A stretch of 64,000 bases of DNA from Dermatophilus congolensis. Its GTDB lineage: Bacteria > Actinomycetota > Actinomycetes > Actinomycetales > Dermatophilaceae. The stretch spans positions 1,302,001 to 1,366,000 of the forward strand of contig NZ_LT906453.1 in the NCBI RefSeq assembly GCF_900187045.1. The letters run 5' to 3'. Position numbers and translations under genes: made by a program. Below are positions 37,932-47,355 of this stretch, piece after piece; the stretch's first letter is position 1, and each line of letters opens with the position of its first letter. The notes under the pieces are model-generated. The model ran no database searches. It was not told the DNA's origin and worked only from the letters and a program-made list of their open reading frames with translations.

Positions 37932-40094
37932 ATGTCTGCATTGATGCCCCCTTGCCCTGTTCGTGGCGATCGTGTTCGTGTGGTGCACGGGGATGCTGTT
38001 GCTGATCCGTATGCATGGTTGGCCGATGTGGAGGATGCTCGTGTTATTGAGCATGTAGAGGCTGAGAATGCGTACGCAGAATCGGTTATGGCTGATTTGG
38101 GTCCGTTGCGTGAATCGATTGTTTCGGAAATTCGTTCGCGTACGCAGGAGACTGACATGTCGGTTCCTGTGAGTTATCGGGGTTGGTGGTATTTCTCACG
38201 GACGGTTGAGGGTGGCCAATATGGAATTGCTTGTCGTGTTCCGGATGTTGATGGTGAGCGCCCTGAGGTAGGGGTAGAGACATTGCCTGAAGAGCAGGTG
38301 TTGCTTGATGGCAATGTTGAGGCCGGGGATGCGGAGTTTTTCACTGTTGGTTCGCAGGTTGTGAGCTCTTCGGGTGAGTTGTACGCGTATTTGGTGGATT
38401 TGACGGGCGATGAGCGTTTTGATCTGCGGATTCGTCGTATTTGTGATGGCCAGGTGGTTGATGATGTGGTCCGTGGGGTGGGGTACGGGCTGGTGTGGTC
38501 TAGTGATGACCGGTTTGTGTTTTACACGCGGGTGGATGACGCGTGGCGTCCGTGTGAGGTGTGGCGTCATGAGGTGGGGTCTTCTGCTGAGAATGATGTA
38601 CGTGTTTTTGTGGAAGAAGATGAGCGTTTTTGGGTGGGGATTAGCGATTCGTCGGATGAGCGTTTTCTTGTGATTTCTTCGGGGTCGAAGAATACGAGTG
38701 AGACGCATTTGCTGGAGTTGGGTGATCCGTGTGGTGATTTGAGGTGCGTTGCTCCACGTATTGAAGGTGTGGAATATGACGTGGAGCCTGCGGGGGACGT
38801 CATGTTTGTTACGCATAATGCGAACAACGCTGACTTTGAGGTGGCGTTTGCTCCGGTGGAGTCGTCTTCGCGGGAGGATTGGGTGAGGTGGTTGGAGCCT
38901 GCCAAGGATGAGCGGGTTGTTGGGGTGAGTGCGTTTGCGCGTGATGTGGTGGTGGCGGTGCGCTCAGGTGGATTTACGCAGTTGAGGGTGGTGCGCCGGT
39001 TGGGTGTTCTCGATGGTGCAGAGGCTCCGGCTGGGCAGGGGTCGTGGTTGCCTGGAGCGTGGCGGAGTGATCCGTGGCAGATTCCTACGGACGAGGTTTC
39101 GCACACGATTGGGTTGTGGTCTAACCCGGATTACGAAACATCTGAGTTGTTGTACTCCTATGAAACGCTTGTTACGCCGCCGAGTGTTGTTTCGTTGGAT
39201 TTTGGGTCGCGTCAGCGGGTGACGTTGAAGACTAGGCCTGTTCTTGGTGGTTTTGATCAGGCGGATTATGTGAGTCGTTCGGTGATGGCTGTGGCGGCTG
39301 ATGGTACGCAGGTGCCGATGTCGTTGGTTGCGCGAGCGGATACTCCGTTGGATGGTACGGCTCCGGGGGTTTTGTATGCCTACGGTGCGTATGAAGTGAG
39401 TTTGGATCCGTGGTTTTCTGTGCCGCGTTTGTCGTTGTTGGATCGTGGGGTGGTGTGGGCTGTTGCTCACGTGCGTGGTGGTGGTGAGTTGGGGCGTTCT
39501 TGGTATGAGCAGGGACGGCTTTGTAGCAAGGCGAATACGTTCTCTGATGTAGTGGCGTGTGCAGATGCTTTGGTTGAGGGTGGGTTTGTTGCCCCGGGGC
39601 GTTTGGCTTTGGAAGGTGGCTCTGCAGGTGGTTTGACGGTGGGGGCTGCGGTGAATTTGGCTCCGGAGAAGTTTGCTGTGGTGCATGCGGCGGTTCCGTT
39701 TGTGGATGCGCTTAATACGATTCTTGATCCGTCGTTGCCGTTGACGGTGACGGAGTGGGAAGAGTGGGGGAATCCTCTGCATGATGCGGATGTGTATTCC
39801 TACATGAAGGCGTACACCCCTTATGAAAATGTGCGGCCTGTGCGTTATCCGGCGGTGTTGGCGACGACGAGTTTGAATGACACGAGGGTTTCGTTTGCTG
39901 AGCCGGCGAAGTGGGTGGCCCGGTTGCGTGAGGTGACGACGAATGGACAGGATCGCCCGATTCTTCTTGTGACTGAGATGGTGGCAGGTCATGGGGGGCG
40001 CAGTGGTCGGTATAAGGCGTGGGAGCAGTATGCGCGTGAGGAGTCTTTTGTTTTGGCGCAGTTGGGGGCCATTGAGCGCGTAGAGCGTGTGTAG
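37932..40094 (+). CDS. ptrB: Oligopeptidase B-like S9A prolyl oligopeptidase
   Basis: A 720-residue serine peptidase with an N-terminal seven-bladed propeller and a C-terminal alpha/beta-hydrolase domain. The catalytic triad is visible: Ser564 in GGSAGG, Asp650 in SLNDTRV and His687 in MVAGHGGRSG. ADPYAWLADVED near the N-terminus and YAYGAYEVSLDPWFS mark the oligopeptidase B group, which cleaves short peptides after basic residues. No signal peptide is seen, so it is cytoplasmic. ATG 37932 or ATG 37944 may be the start. Confidence 0.92.
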   Translation: MSALMPPCPVRGDRVRVVHGDAVADPYAWLADVEDARVIEHVEAENAYAESVMADLGPLRESIVSEIRSRTQETDMSVPVSYRGWWYFSRTVEGGQYGIACRVPDVDGERPEVGVETLPEEQVLLDGNVEAGDAEFFTVGSQVVSSSGELYAYLVDLTGDERFDLRIRRICDGQVVDDVVRGVGYGLVWSSDDRFVFYTRVDDAWRPCEVWRHEVGSSAENDVRVFVEEDERFWVGISDSSDERFLVISSGSKNTSETHLLELGDPCGDLRCVAPRIEGVEYDVEPAGDVMFVTHNANNADFEVAFAPVESSSREDWVRWLEPAKDERVVGVSAFARDVVVAVRSGGFTQLRVVRRLGVLDGAEAPAGQGSWLPGAWRSDPWQIPTDEVSHTIGLWSNPDYETSELLYSYETLVTPPSVVSLDFGSRQRVTLKTRPVLGGFDQADYVSRSVMAVAADGTQVPMSLVARADTPLDGTAPGVLYAYGAYEVSLDPWFSVPRLSLLDRGVVWAVAHVRGGGELGRSWYEQGRLCSKANTFSDVVACADALVEGGFVAPGRLALEGGSAGGLTVGAAVNLAPEKFAVVHAAVPFVDALNTILDPSLPLTVTEWEEWGNPLHDADVYSYMKAYTPYENVRPVRYPAVLATTSLNDTRVSFAEPAKWVARLREVTTNGQDRPILLVTEMVAGHGGRSGRYKAWEQYAREESFVLAQLGAIERVERV

Positions 40095-40104
40095 GTAGTT
40101 CCTT

Positions 40105-40157
40105 TCTCGGCACCCGAAAAGTGATATCTTTTATTTATCACTTTTCGGGTGCCGAGA
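40105..40157. repeat. 22-bp perfect inverted repeat between ptrB and the SPFH gene
   Basis: Arms 40105-40126 and 40136-40157 are exact inverted copies around the 9-base AT-rich centre TCTTTTATT. The inner part reads GTGATA...TATCAC. It starts 11 bases after ptrB and ends 29 bases before the SPFH gene start, so the promoter of the SPFH gene should lie inside or against it. It could be a repressor operator, a terminator for ptrB, or both. The G+C-rich outer arms would form a very stable hairpin. No T-tract follows. Confidence 0.85.
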
Positions 40158-40185
40158 GCGCCCGCTACCGAAAGCAGGTGAAGTC

Positions 40186-41446: not shown

Positions 41447-41744
41447 GGTTGGTCGGTGGCTGCATTTTTCTCGCTTTGATTGTCAGAGAGCCCTTTTAGA
41501 CTGATTGCTGTCATTTCCTGGGTTTGATGTTCATTCGTGAATGTTGATGCCAGGGAGTCTCGTGGATGGCTCCGAAATCTGTCTTCGTGTTTTGTCGGGG
41601 GGGGAATAACTGTGTCGCAGGTGTGAATTGACGCATCGTGCGCTTTGGGTTTGTTGGGCATTGCATGTAGTGAGGGTTTCTGTGGCGTTGCTGTGTGTTT
41701 TGCCTGCGAGAATGTGGAGACGGTCGAGAGTAAGGGAGATCGGG
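41447..41744. other. Intergenic region without recognised gene
   Basis: About 300 bases after the Arc-like gene. No tRNA, repeat or strong hairpin was seen. It must hold the promoter for the downstream gene group, which I could not locate with confidence. Confidence 0.4.
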
Positions 41745-41960
41745 ATGTTTGAGACCACCGCGCAGTTCGTGGGGGCATCTTCCGGTCCCTGTGCAGCCGA
41801 TTTCGGTAAGAGCCGGTTAGTGAATAGTGCTGCGTTTGGCCTTATATGTGATGTTGCAGGGGTCATGATGCTGTCGTTGGAGATGTTGTCTGCTGTTGTG
41901 CGTGTGGTTCAGATGAACCCGCGGGTGGGGGAGATCTCTAATGCCAAAGGTGCTCACTGA
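41745..41960 (+). CDS. Small protein of unknown function, first in the HisH-like gene group
   Basis: A possible 71-residue protein starting at ATG 41745, with AAGGGAG (41732-41738) placed six bases upstream, a good Shine-Dalgarno. It has a hydrophobic region at about residues 25-50 (SAAFGLICDVAGVMMLSLEM core), perhaps a membrane segment. It overlaps the start of the next gene by 20 bases, consistent with coupling. No family recognised. Spurious translation is possible because the upstream frame is also open. Confidence 0.4.
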   Translation: MFETTAQFVGASSGPCAADFGKSRLVNSAAFGLICDVAGVMMLSLEMLSAVVRVVQMNPRVGEISNAKGAH

Positions 41961-42618
41961 TCTGGGCGCCGCGGGTGGGCGCATTGCGATGGCGGATCAG
42001 GGGGTTTTGTTGTCTACGGGGCGTTCTTCGGCGGCGGTGGCGTGGGCGCAGAGGGGGATTGCTGAGGCTGGCGTAGCTTCAGTTGAGGGGTGGACGTTGC
42101 TTTCTCCTGCGGGGCCTAGCCGGGTTCGTTTTCCGTATGACGACCCAGTACGGGCGTTGGCGGGGCGTCCAGTGAGTATGGGTATGCGGCCGGCTATCGG
42201 GATTTTTCGTGTGGGTCAGCAAGCGGCGGTGACCCTGCATCCTCGTGGTTTTCGTCGTGAGGTGAGGTGGATTATTTGGACGCCGGGTGAGGGGATGGTG
42301 CCGCCTGCGGGGTTGTTGGAGGCGGATATTGCGGATGTGGTTGCCTCTTCTGGTTTGCCTCAGTCTCGTCAGGCGCATGCGTCAGCTGTTTTGCACCGGG
42401 TTTTGGTGGATGGTGGTGGTGTCGCCGCGGAGGTTGTGGGTGCTGTGTTTGAGACGTTGGCGTTGCCGGGGGTGGAGTTGTTTGCTGAGCACGGTGATGT
42501 GAGGACGTTGCCTGGAGTGCGGGTGGTTGCTCCGCGTGAGAAATATGCGCGAGAGTTCGAGAAAGTTGTGGATGAGCTGGTTCGAGAGCGTGGTGTTGAG
42601 GAGGGGGCTAAGGAATGA
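41941..42618 (+). CDS. Protein of unknown function coupled to the HisH-like gene
   Basis: A 225-residue, mostly soluble protein that I do not recognise. The N-terminal half has beta-rich stretches (GVLLSTGRSS; RVRFPYDDPVRALAGRPVSMG, core VRFPYDDPVR; AVTLHPRGFRREVRWIIWTPG, core REVRWIIWTPG); the C-terminal part is charged and helical (EKYAREFEKVVDELVRERG). GGGGGAG lies seven bases before the ATG. Its stop overlaps the HisH-like start (ATGA), so the two are made together and may interact. The conserved-looking WTPGEGMVPP segment suggests a folded domain rather than chance. It could be a partner of the altered HisH-like protein, or a leftover from an eroded his region. Confidence 0.7.
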   Translation: MPKVLTDLGAAGGRIAMADQGVLLSTGRSSAAVAWAQRGIAEAGVASVEGWTLLSPAGPSRVRFPYDDPVRALAGRPVSMGMRPAIGIFRVGQQAAVTLHPRGFRREVRWIIWTPGEGMVPPAGLLEADIADVVASSGLPQSRQAHASAVLHRVLVDGGGVAAEVVGAVFETLALPGVELFAEHGDVRTLPGVRVVAPREKYAREFEKVVDELVRERGVEEGAKE

Positions 42619-43259
42619 GTCCTGTTGTTGCGGTGCTGGAGTACGGAGTTGGCGATGTTCGACCGGTTGCTTCTGTGCTTGAGCGTGTGGGGGCACGGGT
42701 AGTTGTGACTTCGGATCGGGGTGAGTGTCAGGATGCTGATGGGCTTGTGGTGTCCGGTTTTGGTGATTTCCGTGTGTGCATGGAGAAGTTGTCTGCGGTT
42801 TTTGGACCACAGGTGATTGAGACTCGGTTGTGTGGTGGGCGGCCAGTTCTGGGGATTGGTGTAGGGATGCAGGTGATGTTTGAAGGTGTGGTGGATGCGT
42901 TAGGGGATGAGGTTGCTGGTTTGGGGGAGTGGCCTGAGGTTGTGGAGCCGGTGAAAGGAGAGGTTGTGCCGCATGTTGGGTGGGGTGTGGTTGATGCGGC
43001 TGAGGGGTCGAAGCTGTTTGTTGGCGTGGATGGGGAGCGTTTTTATTTTGAGCACGAGTATGCGGCGCATTCGTGGTCGCTGTGGCCGACGGGCTCGTTT
43101 GAGGTTGTGAGGCCGTTGGTGTCGTGGTCGGATTATGGTTGTCGTTTTGTTGCTGCGGTGGAGAACGGCCCGTTGGTGGCTACGCAGTTTTACCCCGAGA
43201 GTTCGGGTTTGGCAGGTGAGGTGGTGTTGCGGAATTGGGTTGGAACTTTAAAACGGTAG
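42615..43259 (+). CDS. HisH-like glutamine amidotransferase lacking the catalytic Cys and His
   Basis: A 214-residue homologue of HisH, the glutaminase subunit of imidazole glycerol-phosphate synthase. The class I amidotransferase fold is recognisable: VLEYGVGDVRPVASVLE at the N-terminus (HisH: LDYGSGNLRS), the ADGLVVSGFGDF oxyanion segment (usual form VPGVG), GRPVLGIGVGMQ, and ATQFYPESSG at the C-terminus. The nucleophile Cys of GICVGMQ is Gly82, and the catalytic His of FHPE is Tyr193; only the Glu (Glu195) of the triad remains. As read, it cannot hydrolyse glutamine by the usual mechanism. No hisF, hisA, hisB, hisC or hisD is beside it. It may be an ammonia-dependent or regulatory relic, or repurposed. 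Confidence 0.82.
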   Translation: MSPVVAVLEYGVGDVRPVASVLERVGARVVVTSDRGECQDADGLVVSGFGDFRVCMEKLSAVFGPQVIETRLCGGRPVLGIGVGMQVMFEGVVDALGDEVAGLGEWPEVVEPVKGEVVPHVGWGVVDAAEGSKLFVGVDGERFYFEHEYAAHSWSLWPTGSFEVVRPLVSWSDYGCRFVAAVENGPLVATQFYPESSGLAGEVVLRNWVGTLKR

Positions 43260-43284
43260 ATGGGGTGTGCTGGCCGTTGTGAGG

Positions 43285-43350
43285 CGCCGACATTGCAGTG
43301 GGGCGGGCAAAACCCATCTGGGTTTTGCCCGCCCCACTGCAATGTCGGCG
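43285..43350. repeat. 32-bp perfect inverted repeat between convergent genes
   Basis: Arms 43285-43316 and 43319-43350 are exact inverted copies with only two bases between them. It lies between the HisH-like stop (43259) and the dcuA stop (43356, minus strand), the place expected for a bidirectional terminator, but is far longer than usual and has no flanking T-tract on either side. A transposon remnant or dispersed repeat is an alternative. Confidence 0.9.
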
Positions 43351-43355
43351 TTTGG

Positions 43356-44669
43356 TCAGATGATGATGTGAGCGAGGGCGAATCCGATGGTTACTGCATA
43401 GGTGATTGCCAGTACGCCGGGGATGAGGAATGGATGGTTGAAGACTGCTTTGCCGATGCGGGTGCTTCCGGTGTCGTCCATTTCGACTGCTGCGAGCAGG
43501 GTCGGGTAAGTCGGTAGAACGAAGAGAGCGGATACGGCAGGGAATGCTGCCAGTGCTGCGCCGGGGGCTACGCCTAGGGCTAGAGCTGAGGGCATGAGTG
43601 CTTTGGCTGTGGCGGCTTGTGAGTAGAGAAGGGATGCGGCGAAGAAGAGAACTACTGCAAGTAGCCAGGGGTATTGGGTGAGTAGGGTTCCTGCAGCTCC
43701 TTTGATTGCGGCGGTGTGTGCGTGGACGAAAGTTGTTCCCAGCCATGCAACGCCGAGCACGCAGATGGAGGCGCTCATACCTGATTTAAAGGTTGATGCG
43801 TTGAGGACATCGCTGGCGGGGACTTTGCTGATGAGTACGATGGCCGCAGCGATTGTCAGCATAAAAGCGATGATGGCTTGGTCACGGGTCATCGGTGGGT
43901 TTTCGATGAGGCCGACTTTGTCAGAGATCGCGGTTGCGTAGCCCATGACGGCGACAAGTCCGATGAGGAAAATGAGGACTGATGTGCGGGCATTGGGGGC
44001 TAGTTCTTGGTTTTGGTGTTTGCGTGATTCAACGGTGCCTGCTGCAAGTCGTTCTTGATAGATCGGGTCTTTGTGCAGGGGACTGTTGGGGTTGAATTTG
44101 TCGATGAGCATCATCGTGAATGCCGTGAGCATGCATGCGATGAATGTGGATGGTATGGCTACGCCGAGTACTTGTAGGTAGCCGATTCCTTGTTTTTCGA
44201 GGGTGCTTGAAAAGAACACCACTGCCGCTGAGATGGGGGAGGCGGTGATGGCGATTTGGGAGGCGACTACGGCTACTGAGAGTGGGCGTGAGGGGCGGAT
44301 GTCGTTTTCTTTAGCTACTTCGGTGATGACAGGCATGGTCGAGAAAGCTGTGTGTCCGGTGCCAGCCATGAGGGTCATGAGGTAGGTCACGACGGGGGCG
44401 AGGATGGTGAGGTGTTTGGGGTTTTTTCGGAGGAGTTTTTCGGCGAGGTTGACGAGGTAGTCCATTCCGCCTGCTACTTGCATTGCTGCGATGGCGCAGA
44501 TGACGGACATGATGATGGATATCACGTCGAGTGGCATGTCGCCGGGGGATACGCCTAGGAGGGCTAGTGCGAGTACTCCTAGGCCGCCGACGAAACCGAT
44601 GGCGATGCCGCCGAGTCTCGCGCCGAGGAGGATTGCGGTGAGGACGATTAAAAGGTGAATCCAGATCAT
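43356..44669 (-). CDS. dcuA: Anaerobic C4-dicarboxylate transporter, DcuA/DcuB family
   Basis: A 437-residue Dcu carrier with about ten membrane segments, exchanging fumarate, succinate, malate or aspartate across the cell membrane. [22 protein letters not shown] (core [10 protein letters not shown]), [18 protein letters not shown] (core [12 protein letters not shown]) and the [23 protein letters not shown] region (core [19 protein letters not shown]) are characteristic. It overlaps the aspA stop as ATGA on the minus strand, so transport and aspartate deamination are coupled. DcuA rather than DcuB is chosen from the pairing with aspA, as in E. coli; the symbol is tentative. Confidence 0.93.
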
Positions 44670-46117
44670 CGAGCAGCCTGTGGGTCGGAGGGAGTCCCGT
44701 TTTCTGCGAGTTCGCGCAGATCGCGGGGGCGCATGAGGTTTTCGCGTGAAAGTACGCGGTCGAGTAGGTCTGCGTCCATGAGTTCTCGTTCGAGGACGAT
44801 TTCGCGGACGCTTCTACCTGTTGCGGCGGCTTCTTTGCCGACGGCGTCACCGGCTGTGTGGCCGATGTAGTCGTTGAGGTAGGTAACCACGCCGATGGAG
44901 TTTGTGACGTATTCGTGGCATACGTCGGGGTTGGCGGTGATGCCTTGAATGCATTTGGTGCGCAGGGTGGTGCAGGCGTTTTTGAGCAGTGAGATGGACT
45001 CGAAGAGCGCTTGGGCGATGACGGGTTCCATGACGTTGAGTTGGAGTTGTCCGGCTTCTGCGGCGAGGGAGACGGTGAGGTCGTTGCCCATGACTTTGAA
45101 GCAGACCTGGTTAACGACTTCAGGTATGACGGGGTTCACTTTGGCGGGCATGATCGATGAACCTGCTTGCATTTCGGGCAGGTTGATTTCGTTGAGTCCT
45201 GCGCGGGGTCCGGAGGATAGGAGGCGTAGGTCGTTGCAGATTTTGGAGAGTTTGACGGCAAGGCGTTTGAGTGCTGCGTGGGCCATGACGTAGGCCCCGC
45301 AGTCGCTGGTGGCTTCGATGAGGTTGGGGGCGGGGATGCAGGGGCGGCCGCTGACTCGAGCGAGGTTGACGAGGGCGAGATTGGCGTATTCGGGGGGCGT
45401 GTTGAGTCCGGTTCCGATAGCTGTGGCGCCGAGGTTCATTTCGAGTAGGAGGGTGCGGGCATTGTCGAGGTGGCGGAGTTCTTCTCCGAGGGTGACGGCG
45501 AAGGCGGTGAATTCTTGGCCGAGGGTCATGGGGACGGCGTCTTGGAGTTGGGTGCGTCCCATTTTGAGGATTTCGGTGAATTCGTCGCCTTTGTTGGCAA
45601 AGGTGGCGTTGAGCTCGCCGAGTGTGTCTGCTAGTTCGCCGAGCATGGTGTCGACGGCGAGGCGGAATCCGCAGGGGTATGCATCGTTGGTGGATTGGCT
45701 GCGGTTGACGTCGTCGTTGGGGTTGACGATTTTGTAGTTTCCTTTGGGCTCGCCGAGGTGTTCGAGGGCGAGGTTGGCGATGACTTCGTTGGTGTTCATG
45801 TTGAGGGATGTGCCGGCGCCGCCTTGGAATACGTCGATGGGGAATTGGTCCATGCAGCGGTTGTTGTCGAGCATTTGGTCGCAGGCCCAGATGATTGCGT
45901 CGGCGATTTCGGGTTTGAGTGCCCCGAGGGTTTTGTTGGTCATTGCTGCGGCTTTTTTGACCATGACCATGCCGCGGATCATGGCGGGGGTGTCATTGAT
46001 GGTGTGTCCGGAGATGGGGAAGTTTTCGATGGCTCTGGTGGCGTGGATGCCGTAGTAGGCGTTGGCGGGGACGTCTTTGCTTCCGAGTAGGTCGGTTTCG
46101 GTGCGTGTGGTGCTCAT
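44666..46117 (-). CDS. aspA: Aspartate ammonia-lyase
   Basis: AspA converts L-aspartate to fumarate and ammonia. The 483-residue fumarase/aspartase-superfamily enzyme has the signature loop [10 protein letters not shown] at residues 319-328, [28 protein letters not shown] and [17 protein letters not shown] (core [11 protein letters not shown]). AspA and class II fumarase are similar, but [10 protein letters not shown] together with the adjacent dcuA favours aspartase. On the minus strand AAGGAG lies seven bases before the ATG at 46117. With dcuA it can supply fumarate for anaerobic electron transfer or use aspartate as nitrogen source. Confidence 0.93.
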
Positions 46118-46497
46118 GTGTGTCTCCTTGGTTTGGTGTCTGGGGTTCTGTTGTTGATGGTGCGGTCTCTTGGTTTAAGGATGCTCTTTTGGTGATGTGG
46201 CCGGGGCTTGTTTGGGGGTGTATTAGCTGGATGTGAGGGGATTATCAGGGCGGTGCTGGGGGTCACGTGGCAAAGGCTGTTGAAGGTGGTAGGTCGGTGG
46301 GGCTATCTGGTTTTCTGTGGGGATTCTTGATAGGGTGGTGAGTCGACCGGTCAGCCTGCGCATGCGAAGTCATTCATCTGTGAAAGATGTTGTGGTTTAG
46401 CGGTGTAGGTAGACATCAAGTGAGGCGCTACCTGCTTCCACCTGTTTATCGCTTTTTGCGTTCGGGTCACGGGTCTTCGACATTGATTTGTCGTGTG

Positions 46498-46518
46498 TCG
46501 GGTCTTTTGGGGACCCGA
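46498..46518 (+). other. Hairpin in the infC leader
   Basis: TCGGGTC (46498-46504) pairs with GACCCGA (46512-46518) around a 7-nt loop, just before the leader terminator. It could be part of an antiterminator or L20/IF3-responsive structure. Confidence 0.45.
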
Positions 46519-46532
46519 GTCTCGTGCTGGGT

Positions 46533-46567
46533 AATGCCTTTCGTGATGTCTGCGAGAGGCATTTTTT
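46533..46567 (+). terminator. Intrinsic terminator inside the infC leader (candidate attenuator)
   Basis: An 11-bp stem (46533-46543 with 46553-46563, one G-T pair) is followed by six T residues, the textbook form of an intrinsic terminator. It lies about 150 bases before the infC start and in the same direction, which is where a leader attenuator would be. In other bacteria infC-rpmI-rplT is controlled through its leader (L20 or transcription attenuation), so regulation by early termination is a fair inference. Confidence 0.7.
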
Positions 46568-46713
46568 GTGTCCCTGGTGTCCGTGGTTCGAGAAGTTTGT
46601 GGAGGTTTTCTCCGCTAGCTTCTCGAGGCATGGCCCCTGTGGGCAGCCTGGCTGGGCGAGGTGTTCAAAGAGGACCGCCTCGTTAGGGATCCACGAGTTT
46701 AAAGGAGCGCGAC

Positions 46714-47355
46714 ATCAGCGAAGCCCGTATTAATGACCGCATTCGAGTGCCCAAGGTTCGATTGGTTGGACCGAACGGCGAGCAGGCCGGGATCGTCAAT
46801 ATTGATGAGGCCTTGCGTCTGGCTGCGGAGGTTGACCTCGACTTGGTCGAGGTTGCCCCTAATGCCAATCCGCCGGTGGCCAAGCTCATGGATTATGGCA
46901 AGTACAAGTACGAAGCCGCTTTGAAAGCCCGTGAGTCCCGCAAGAACCAGGTCAATACGGTCATCAAGGAGATCAAGCTCCGACCGAAGATCGATGCGCA
47001 CGACTACGAGACGAAGAAGGGCCACGTTGTCCGATTCCTCTCTGGTGGTGACAAGGTCAAGGTGACGATCATGTTCCGTGGTCGGGAGCAGTCCCGCCCG
47101 GAGTTGGGGTTCCGTCTGCTCCAGCGTTTGGCTGACGATGTCGCCGAACTAGGAACGGTGGAAAGCCAACCAAAGCAGGATGGCCGGAACATGGTGATGG
47201 TGGTCGCTCCAACGAAGAAGAAGTCAGAAGCTAAGGCTGAGCAGCGTCGTAAGCGTGACGAGTCTGCTCGAGCGGCTGCGCAGGCTAAAGCTGAGAAGCA
47301 GGCGCCGGCAGCAGCGGCTGAGACTGCAGCTGAAGAGCCAGTCGAGCAGGCCTGA
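46714..47355 (+). CDS. infC: Translation initiation factor IF-3, with ATC start codon
   Basis: IF3 binds the 30S subunit and checks the start codon. The 213-residue protein has [21 protein letters not shown] (core [13 protein letters not shown]), [20 protein letters not shown] and the C-terminal [13 protein letters not shown] with [12 protein letters not shown]. The only open upstream frame contains no ATG, GTG or TTG before conserved sequence: the stop TAG is at 46684-46686. AAAGGAG (46701-46707) sits six bases before the ATC at 46714, exactly where infC begins in other bacteria (often a rare codon, used in autoregulation). Ends in a Lys/Ala/Glu-rich tail. It is followed by rpmI and rplT. 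Confidence 0.95.

Follow-up and report, generated by a model that had tools for sequence, protein, structure and literature searches.

A HisH homologue without its catalytic residues in Dermatophilus congolensis, a probable pseudoenzyme

What keeps the gene of a glutaminase subunit open after its catalytic residues and its partner have both been lost? The question is raised by an open reading frame (ORF) of Dermatophilus congolensis (Actinomycetota; Dermatophilaceae) that encodes a homologue of HisH, the glutaminase subunit of imidazole glycerol phosphate (IGP) synthase. It lies in a stretch of 64,000 nucleotides, the window, which spans positions 1,302,001 to 1,366,000 of the forward strand of contig NZ_LT906453.1 (assembly GCF_900187045.1). 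A preliminary description of this locus, made from the sequence alone, had read the protein as a HisH whose glutaminase triad is destroyed and whose gene is nevertheless retained. The answer that is considered probable here is that the HisH-like protein is a pseudoenzyme on which constraint is relaxed yet real, and which selection maintains as a folded protein with a binding role and no catalytic one.

Loss of the active site and of the histidine pathway

The HisH-like ORF scored 136.9 bits against the NCBIfam HisH model TIGR01855 (curated cut-off 105.4) and also matched PF00117 (class I glutamine amidotransferase), and the nearest solved structures by sequence were HisH chains. Its AlphaFold2 (AF2) model, with a predicted local distance difference test (pLDDT) score of 96.1, aligned best with the HisH structure 4gud (Z 29.2, root-mean-square deviation 1.5 over 195 residues), which describes a prediction and not a solved structure. 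Together with the gene order described below, these results bear out the homology that had been proposed and, as far as a model can tell, the fold and length. The coupling to the upstream gene and the good start were likewise found: the upstream ORF, here called protein X, shares its last 4 bases with the start of this one, and a ribosome-binding-site-like sequence precedes the ATG (Table 1). A second, intact HisH elsewhere in the same genome was rejected, as just this ORF among five glutamine amidotransferase matches passed the HisH cut-off; the genome consists of one contig of 2,627,820 bases and is rated 100% complete. The G+C content of the window is 55.7%, below the 58.8% given for whole genomes of D. 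congolensis in the available part of PMC8267673.

Two genomes stand for the genus in what follows, that of the window (G000) and one sampled genome of the same genus (G014, the sister genome); the restriction was made because both catalytic motifs are present in the HisH of a metagenome-assembled genome (L127) that is labelled 'uncultured Dermatophilus sp.'. The alignment comprised 59 HisH sequences, i.e. the two from the genus, 54 from 53 other genomes of the family (one with two copies) and three from genomes with seemingly replaced his operons (G008, G047 and G057), which were counted apart. One further genome, G038, yielded no HisH, and its X and one HisA-type match sit at contig ends. The nucleophile Cys and the catalytic His were both kept in 54/54 sequences from the rest of the family, in 3/3 from the replaced-looking operons and at 80/80 HisH loci of named genomes (partly the same genomes as the family set). 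In the window protein the triad reads Gly82, Tyr193 and Glu195, as had been described, and this is confirmed by the codons, by the orthologue alignment that the preliminary description had called for and by the sister copy, which has an intact frame, is 94% identical to the window protein and carries the same Gly and Tyr. A sequencing error was rejected because the same losses occur in this second genome.

On the alignment, the loss of conserved sites is wider than the two catalytic residues first noted. The oxyanion strand PGVG has become SGFG, Val146 and Ser148 of the Gln-pocket strand have both become Glu, EYGVGD stands in place of DYGSGN, and Ser replaces the Lys that follows the triad Glu. 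In HisH of Thermotoga maritima, according to the available part of PMC8115485, hV51 (oxyanion strand) and hV140 line or contact the Gln site, and hN12 contacts both hE180 and fD98 of HisF; with T. maritima numbering read from the alignment, hN12 corresponds to Asp14 of the window protein. Acidic residues were gained in both genus copies at positions 14, 51, 146 and 148. Regarding the 73 near-invariant columns, 25 were altered in one or both of the genus copies; regarding the 57 columns that are strictly invariant in the 54 other sequences, 16 were changed in the window copy and 18 in the sister copy. In a leave-one-out count every other sequence broke at most three of about 60 invariant columns. 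Judged from these residues, the window protein almost certainly does not hydrolyze glutamine.

The partner of HisH is missing as well. The HisA/HisF model PF00977 gave matches above its cut-off in 57 of 59 family genomes and matches at noise level, below the cut-off, in G000 and G014; the genome search for hisF and hisA proposed in the preliminary description thus found neither above the cut-off, and a divergent HisF still present was rejected. HisD, HisB and HisG were not found in G000 or G014 and were present in 8/8 other genomes examined, and HisI was not found in either genome and was present in 4/9 others, five of those nine having been chosen as poor in HisA/HisF (the enzymes searched were HisA/HisF, HisB, HisD, HisG and HisI). 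Because these enzymes were found in neither genome, G000 and G014 are predicted to need histidine. A role of the HisH-like protein in IGP synthesis is impossible, since the nucleophile, the catalytic His and HisF are all lacking.

The gene itself is the ancestral hisH copy in place and was not acquired, because the gene order matches that of Mobilicoccus pelagius (L108). In that genome an S9 peptidase gene is followed by those of an SPFH protein and a ribbon-helix-helix protein, a gap of 4.3 kb, X, hisH, a further gap and infC; the 4.3 kb gap holds hisD and hisB (hisC being inferred from the gap size), and the gap before infC holds priA. The window keeps this order minus hisDCB and priA and plus a dcuA-aspA-like pair before infC. 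A translated comparison of the flanking gaps with hisDCB and priA revealed no convincing remnants: the best upstream match (E 0.006, 68 columns, 24% identity) lay on the reverse strand of both sequences, and the significant downstream matches lay at infC. As evidence against its reading the preliminary description had named a normal HisH at this locus in close relatives together with stop codons in this strain group; the former was found, and the sister genome has no stop codon in the gene.

Selection on the gene and a second degenerate HisH

Over 19.5 kb the genomes G000 and G014 share 96% identity, and the 14 genes tested, X and the HisH-like gene included, are co-linear in the two. Between the two copies of the HisH-like gene the synonymous divergence (dS) was 0.110 and the nonsynonymous divergence (dN) 0.0278, which corresponds to a dN/dS of 0.25; the ratio for X was 0.15. 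The mutation spectrum of the fourfold sites of seven neighbouring genes was used to simulate 30 neutral substitutions in the gene. The neutral expectation was 19.8 +/- 2.5 changed residues, compared with 12 observed (P 0.0026), and a stop was gained in 61% of the runs, compared with none in the observed gene. Some purifying selection has acted on it since the two genomes split. Because the frame is intact in both genomes, dN/dS is 0.25 (from only 30 substitutions) and not near 1, and neutrality is rejected, the HisH-like protein is not the product of an ordinary pseudogene. Isolates of D. congolensis fall into two groups, 9 at an average nucleotide identity of 94.6% and 31 above 98%, with amino-acid identities of 96.5% and 99.9%, as reported in the available text of PMC8267673; if G000 and G014 represent such groups, as seems probable, X (96%) matches the mean and the HisH-like protein (94%) falls a little short of it.

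That this selection is relaxed is clear. The HisH-like gene showed 42-49 unique changes compared with 13-16 in an ingroup relative (six comparisons), an approximately threefold acceleration; the corresponding ratios were 0.6-2.0 for infC, 0.8-1.4 for pheS, 0.8-2.3 for TrmH, 1.2-2.3 for rplT and 0.8-2.1 for X. Gly82 and Tyr193 were already present in both lineages before the split. Of the differences between the two copies, seven could be polarized and five more were unclear; six of the seven fell on the G014 branch, five of these six at columns that are unchanged in 50 or more of the 54 relatives.

A second degenerate HisH was found in a screen of 396 genomes of the order. By eye, 28 genomes poor in HisA/HisF were picked, G000 and G014 included (G014 lies outside the 396-genome table); the other 26 comprised 15 without a confident HisA/HisF-type match and 11 whose only such match had an E value of 1e-38 to 1e-55. 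G101, with one match of HisF strength, was excluded, and the set together with the window genus represents 12 genera. Among the 28 genomes HisH was above the cut-off in just G000 and G014. Fifteen of the 26 had matches below the threshold, 13 of which were PdxT (10), PurQ (2) and GuaA (1), the other two being those of G106 and G353; no HisH match was seen in 11 of the 26, where the limit of E 0.001 could pass over a strongly degenerate HisH.

G106 and G353 belong to one genus of the same order but of another family, and HisH was the only NCBIfam match of their copies, below the cut-off. These copies (L217:9610-10362 in G106 and on L218 in G353; 250 and 246 amino acids) lie directly before a retained priA, followed by infC, which is the expected place of hisH. 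The adjoining priA is the one HisA/HisF-type gene of each genome, hence there is no HisF; HisI was not found in either genome, and hisD and hisB gave no match within 19.5 kb around the locus. In the triad Cys has become Gly, His has become Cys and Glu has become Val, the frame is intact, and 35/57 of the strictly invariant columns are changed in both copies. The two proteins are 74% identical, with a dS of 1.04, a dN of 0.175 and a dN/dS of 0.17 (0.08 for priA and 0.05 for TrmH). This ratio of 0.17 at a dS of about 1 is the main support for the view that selection can maintain a dead HisH. The claim of the preliminary description that the gene is retained and not simply decaying is supported by this case and by the dN/dS for which it had asked, by the lack of stops and by the rejection of neutrality in the window genus.

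Each of the 16 strictly invariant columns that both window-genus sequences have lost is among the 35 lost in G106 and G353, for which the probability is 7e-5 if columns are assumed to be independent. The replacements of Cys by Gly and of Ser148 by Glu are common to both lineages. The HisH of G106 and G353 is 35-38% identical to those of the window and of Mobilicoccus; the losses in the two lineages look independent, because the window copy is closer to active HisH of its own family (up to 59% identity) than to G106 and G353 (about 36-38%). Stretches kept in both lineages are GGRPVL (74-79; Pro77 is Ser in G014), GEWP (104-107) and AAVENGPL (180-187). A normal HisH was not found within 160 kb around hisF in G226 and G169, two HisF-bearing genomes of the genus of G106, in which only HisF was seen. 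As an observation on the side, dS between G106 and G353 was 0.05 at infC and rplT compared with 0.6-1.0 at priA, TrmH and hisH, which may be due to recombination or to a strong codon constraint at infC and rplT.

Protein X and other elements of the locus

Protein X is a habitual neighbour of hisH and not a general partner of it. It lies directly upstream of hisH at 42/54 other loci of the family, and the 4-base overlap occurs at 31/44 loci, the window genus included (start codons were assigned by script). It is not a general partner because hisH loci without X, X without hisH and a second pseudo-HisH genus without X all exist: at 12/54 loci hisH has no adjoining X; in G047, G057 and G008 X stands beside a diverged HisA/PriA-type gene with no adjoining hisH, another his operon being located elsewhere (in G057 and G008 X lies just before infC; loci among L105, L106 and L107); and X was not found in G106, G353 or the other 24 HisA/HisF-poor genomes. 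It was present in one of nine further genomes outside the family. Among the genomes sampled X forms a family that is nearly confined to this bacterial family and for which neither Pfam nor NCBIfam has a model.

Pfam and NCBIfam gave no match for X of the window, and Pfam gave none for any of the 43 aligned members (L013, an X sequence containing a run of N, was not aligned). A sequence search of the PDB with X revealed no convincing relative (10 matches, all with E 0.3 or worse), and the AF2 model (pLDDT 91.4) had no Foldseek match with E <= 0.001 in the PDB; since the best VIA Z score was 3.9, no function was read from the fold. X, which has been retained together with the HisH-like gene, is a possible partner of the HisH-like protein, as the preliminary description had suggested, but in the window genus only. 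Its own evolution argues against this: its unique changes numbered 25:21 and 17:21 with a nearly full-length outgroup and 15:7, 14:8, 19:10 and 15:8 with two partial ones, and a basic charge compensating the acidic gains was not found in X.

Table 1. Features at and around the HisH-like gene (positions in the window)
Feature	Positions	Strand	Basis or remark
Gap where Mobilicoccus has hisD and hisB (hisC inferred)	41447..41940	.	Gene-remnant comparison
Protein X, 225 amino acids	41941..42618	+	Stop overlaps HisH-like start by 4 bases; no family match
AGGAGG, ribosome-binding-site-like sequence of the HisH-like ORF	42599..42604	+	Ends 10 bases before ATG; motif also in G014
HisH-like ORF, pseudo-glutaminase	42615..43259	+	214 amino acids, ATG start; TIGR01855, PF00117, AF2 model
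Oxyanion strand, PGVG changed to SGFG	42753..42764	+	P47 and V49 in 54/54 relatives
Codon 82 GGT, Gly replacing nucleophile Cys (hC84 of T. maritima), in GIGVGMQ	42858..42860	+	Cys in 54/54 other family HisH
Gln-pocket strand, FEHEYA instead of FVHSYA (Glu for Val146 and for Ser148)	43050..43058	+	V and S in 54/54 relatives
Codon 193 TAC, Tyr replacing catalytic His (hH178), in FYPE	43191..43193	+	His in 54/54 other family HisH
Codon 195 GAG, triad Glu retained (hE180)	43197..43199	+	Sequence, alignment
Interval where relatives have priA before infC	43260..46746	.	dcuA-like and aspartase-like genes instead, on the - strand
Perfect 28-bp inverted repeat, 6-base loop, terminator-like, no T run	43287..43348	.	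Lies between two convergent genes, HisH-like and dcuA-like

In the place of priA the window has genes for an anaerobic C4-dicarboxylate transporter (DcuA/DcuB) and an aspartase-like protein (43356-46117). The inverted repeat behind the HisH-like gene is still perfect in G014, where two matching compensatory changes are found in both arms. Searches for RNA elements near the operon gave 13 matches, all below the gathering score, of which 10 fell on two inverted repeats; through such sub-threshold Rfam matches a further inverted-repeat hairpin was noticed at 40092-40164, between the S9 peptidase and SPFH genes. Promoters of the sigma-70 type were not found (0.7 expected in shuffled sequences), and neither X nor the HisH-like protein nor the ribbon-helix-helix protein matched the models of defence systems.

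Two observations concern the histidine and tryptophan pathways more widely. PriA took over the TrpF step in Actinomycetota after the loss of trpF, as stated in the available part of PMC13055916. In the genome of the window, genes of the trpE, trpC, trpB and trpA type are present (C1:2049000-2067000, L215) although PriA was not found; there may be a gap in its tryptophan pathway. In G035 two neighbouring segments that are read in different frames make up the HisF-type match (G035:C1:1878543-1879249), which suggests that this hisF is frameshifted or misassembled.

Explanations weighed and comparison with known systems

The reading favoured above may be put as follows. The his operon was otherwise lost in the genus, and the HisH-like gene is the direct descendant of its glutaminase subunit HisH. 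Catalysis is taken to be gone, with nucleophile, catalytic His, oxyanion strand, Gln pocket and HisF partner all lost or altered, and selection would maintain a folded protein for binding, in a role that depends on neither HisF nor the glutamine site. Least firmly, the contact surface might be sought among the three stretches kept in both lineages. A homologue with a predicted intact fold has lost its catalytic residues, and its inactive form is under purifying selection, neutrality being rejected here and strongly for G106 and G353, with the selection relaxed and the G014 copy eroding; on this reading the protein would lack enzymatic activity and serve a non-catalytic function. A role intrinsic to HisH is favoured because no single neighbour is common to both lineages, and in the genus of G106 and G353 PriA is a candidate partner.

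Several points weigh against this reading. The dN/dS of the HisH-like gene is the second highest of the 12 regional genes compared in frame (range 0.00-0.27, itself included; TrmH and pheS, read there in a wrong frame, were excluded), the test in the window lineage uses two genomes and 30 substitutions, and the G014 copy is eroding. The AF2 model rests on an alignment of mostly active HisH, so that a folded look is expected regardless. In G106 and G353 the gene has a one-base overlap with priA, and translation into priA could alone keep the frame open, but not the low dN/dS. A HisH-like frame was kept in two of the 12 genera with none or one HisA/HisF-type gene, which makes retention not general, and neither candidate neighbour occurs in both lineages, X being missing in G106 and G353 and priA in the genome of the window.

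Some of these points fit the main rival, a slowly decaying relic, left functionless by the loss of the his operon, intact through luck, recent loss or co-transcription with X, and bound to break; this is considered unlikely. The threefold acceleration, the 25 changed columns of 73, the radical changes at conserved sites in G014, the rank of the dN/dS and the 39% of neutral 30-substitution runs that remain free of stops all agree with decay. They are set against too few amino-acid changes for neutrality, two lineages without stop or frameshift, the lack of a convincing hisDCB or priA remnant alongside, and the second pseudo-HisH, whose low dN/dS at a dS of about 1 indicates that long retention is possible. 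A different account holds that an ancestral second job of HisH outside the glutaminase reaction, for example an effect on cell division, alone kept the gene. In Salmonella, overexpression of HisH alone, and not of HisF, is reported to cause filamentation, which the authors consider independent of HisHF activity (PMC12345169, available part), and in two lineages that differ in the adjoining genes hisH has persisted beyond the loss of HisF and of its own active site. The Salmonella effect arises by overexpression, however, and 10 of the 12 HisA/HisF-poor genera show no HisH-like frame, so that moonlighting of this kind appears distinctly unlikely.

Very little credence is given to a new catalytic function in a remodelled pocket formed by Tyr193, Glu195 and the gained Asp14, Asp51, Glu146 and Glu148. 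The acidic gains are present in both genus copies and the fold is predicted to be intact; the second pseudo-HisH, however, has Thr14, Lys146, Cys193 and Val195 and hence no shared new site, and evolution in the window genus is relaxed. The ammonia-channelling or structural subunit that the preliminary description had envisaged is, as a part of IGP synthase, not borne out. An ammonia-dependent or structural subunit whose HisF was missed or is divergent would agree with the HisH score above the cut-off, yet it is already contradicted and has next to no chance of being right: the five enzymes searched are absent from both genomes, that of the window being a one-contig genome rated complete, and the replacements at hN12, the contact to fD98 of HisF, and at the Lys after the triad Glu do not suit such a subunit.

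For the pseudoenzyme reading a wider proposal can be made tentatively, with the odds against it: an ancestral HisH function independent of both HisF and the glutamine site might alone have kept the gene in at least two his-less actinobacterial lineages, giving convergent orphan pseudoenzymes in which the same invariant residues were lost. That function may already show in the effect reported for HisH alone on the division of Salmonella cells. A HisH with a dead active site and without HisF separates HisH from glutamine hydrolysis and histidine synthesis, and this has happened at least twice. If such proteins are functional, their role must be non-catalytic, they are natural separation-of-function mutants, and the old question of why HisH affects enteric cell division becomes testable; if the copy in the window is only a relic, it still documents how a subunit of a pathway loses its catalytic residues while its frame survives.

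In titles and abstracts, with most subscription journals outside the coverage, none of the matches listed described a HisH of Dermatophilus, a HisH pseudoenzyme or inactive HisH, or a HisH retained after gene loss. The window protein resembles active HisH in its score above the curated cut-off, its length, its predicted fold, its ancestral operon position and the triad Glu, and differs from it by the lack of Cys, His and HisF, by SGFG instead of PGVG and by the altered Gln pocket. The degenerate HisH of G106 and G353 shares with it the loss of HisF, the intact frame, the two common replacements, the same lost columns and a dN/dS well below 1, but is more degenerate (Glu195 lost, score below the cut-off), is coupled to a retained priA and has no X. 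With the other class I glutamine amidotransferases (PF00117: PdxT, the GuaA N-terminal domain, PurQ and TrpG) the window protein shares the superfamily and the predicted fold; it has lost their catalytic dyad, and HisH is by far its nearest subfamily. Mammalian carbamoyl phosphate synthetase I likewise keeps a class I amidotransferase domain without its nucleophile Cys, but its synthetase partner has not been lost and works with free ammonia. The filamentation of Salmonella is similar in that an effect of HisH was reported to be independent of HisHF activity, and different in that the Salmonella enzyme is intact and overexpressed and a link to actinobacteria is not shown in the part of PMC12345169 available. 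The nearest published parallel is PriA of Actinomycetaceae, which, according to the available part of PMC5404923, was retained and re-specialized under relaxed selection after the loss of his and trp genes: in both cases a protein of the same pathway was kept after gene loss under relaxed selection, but PriA remains an enzyme, whereas the window protein appears to have lost catalysis altogether.

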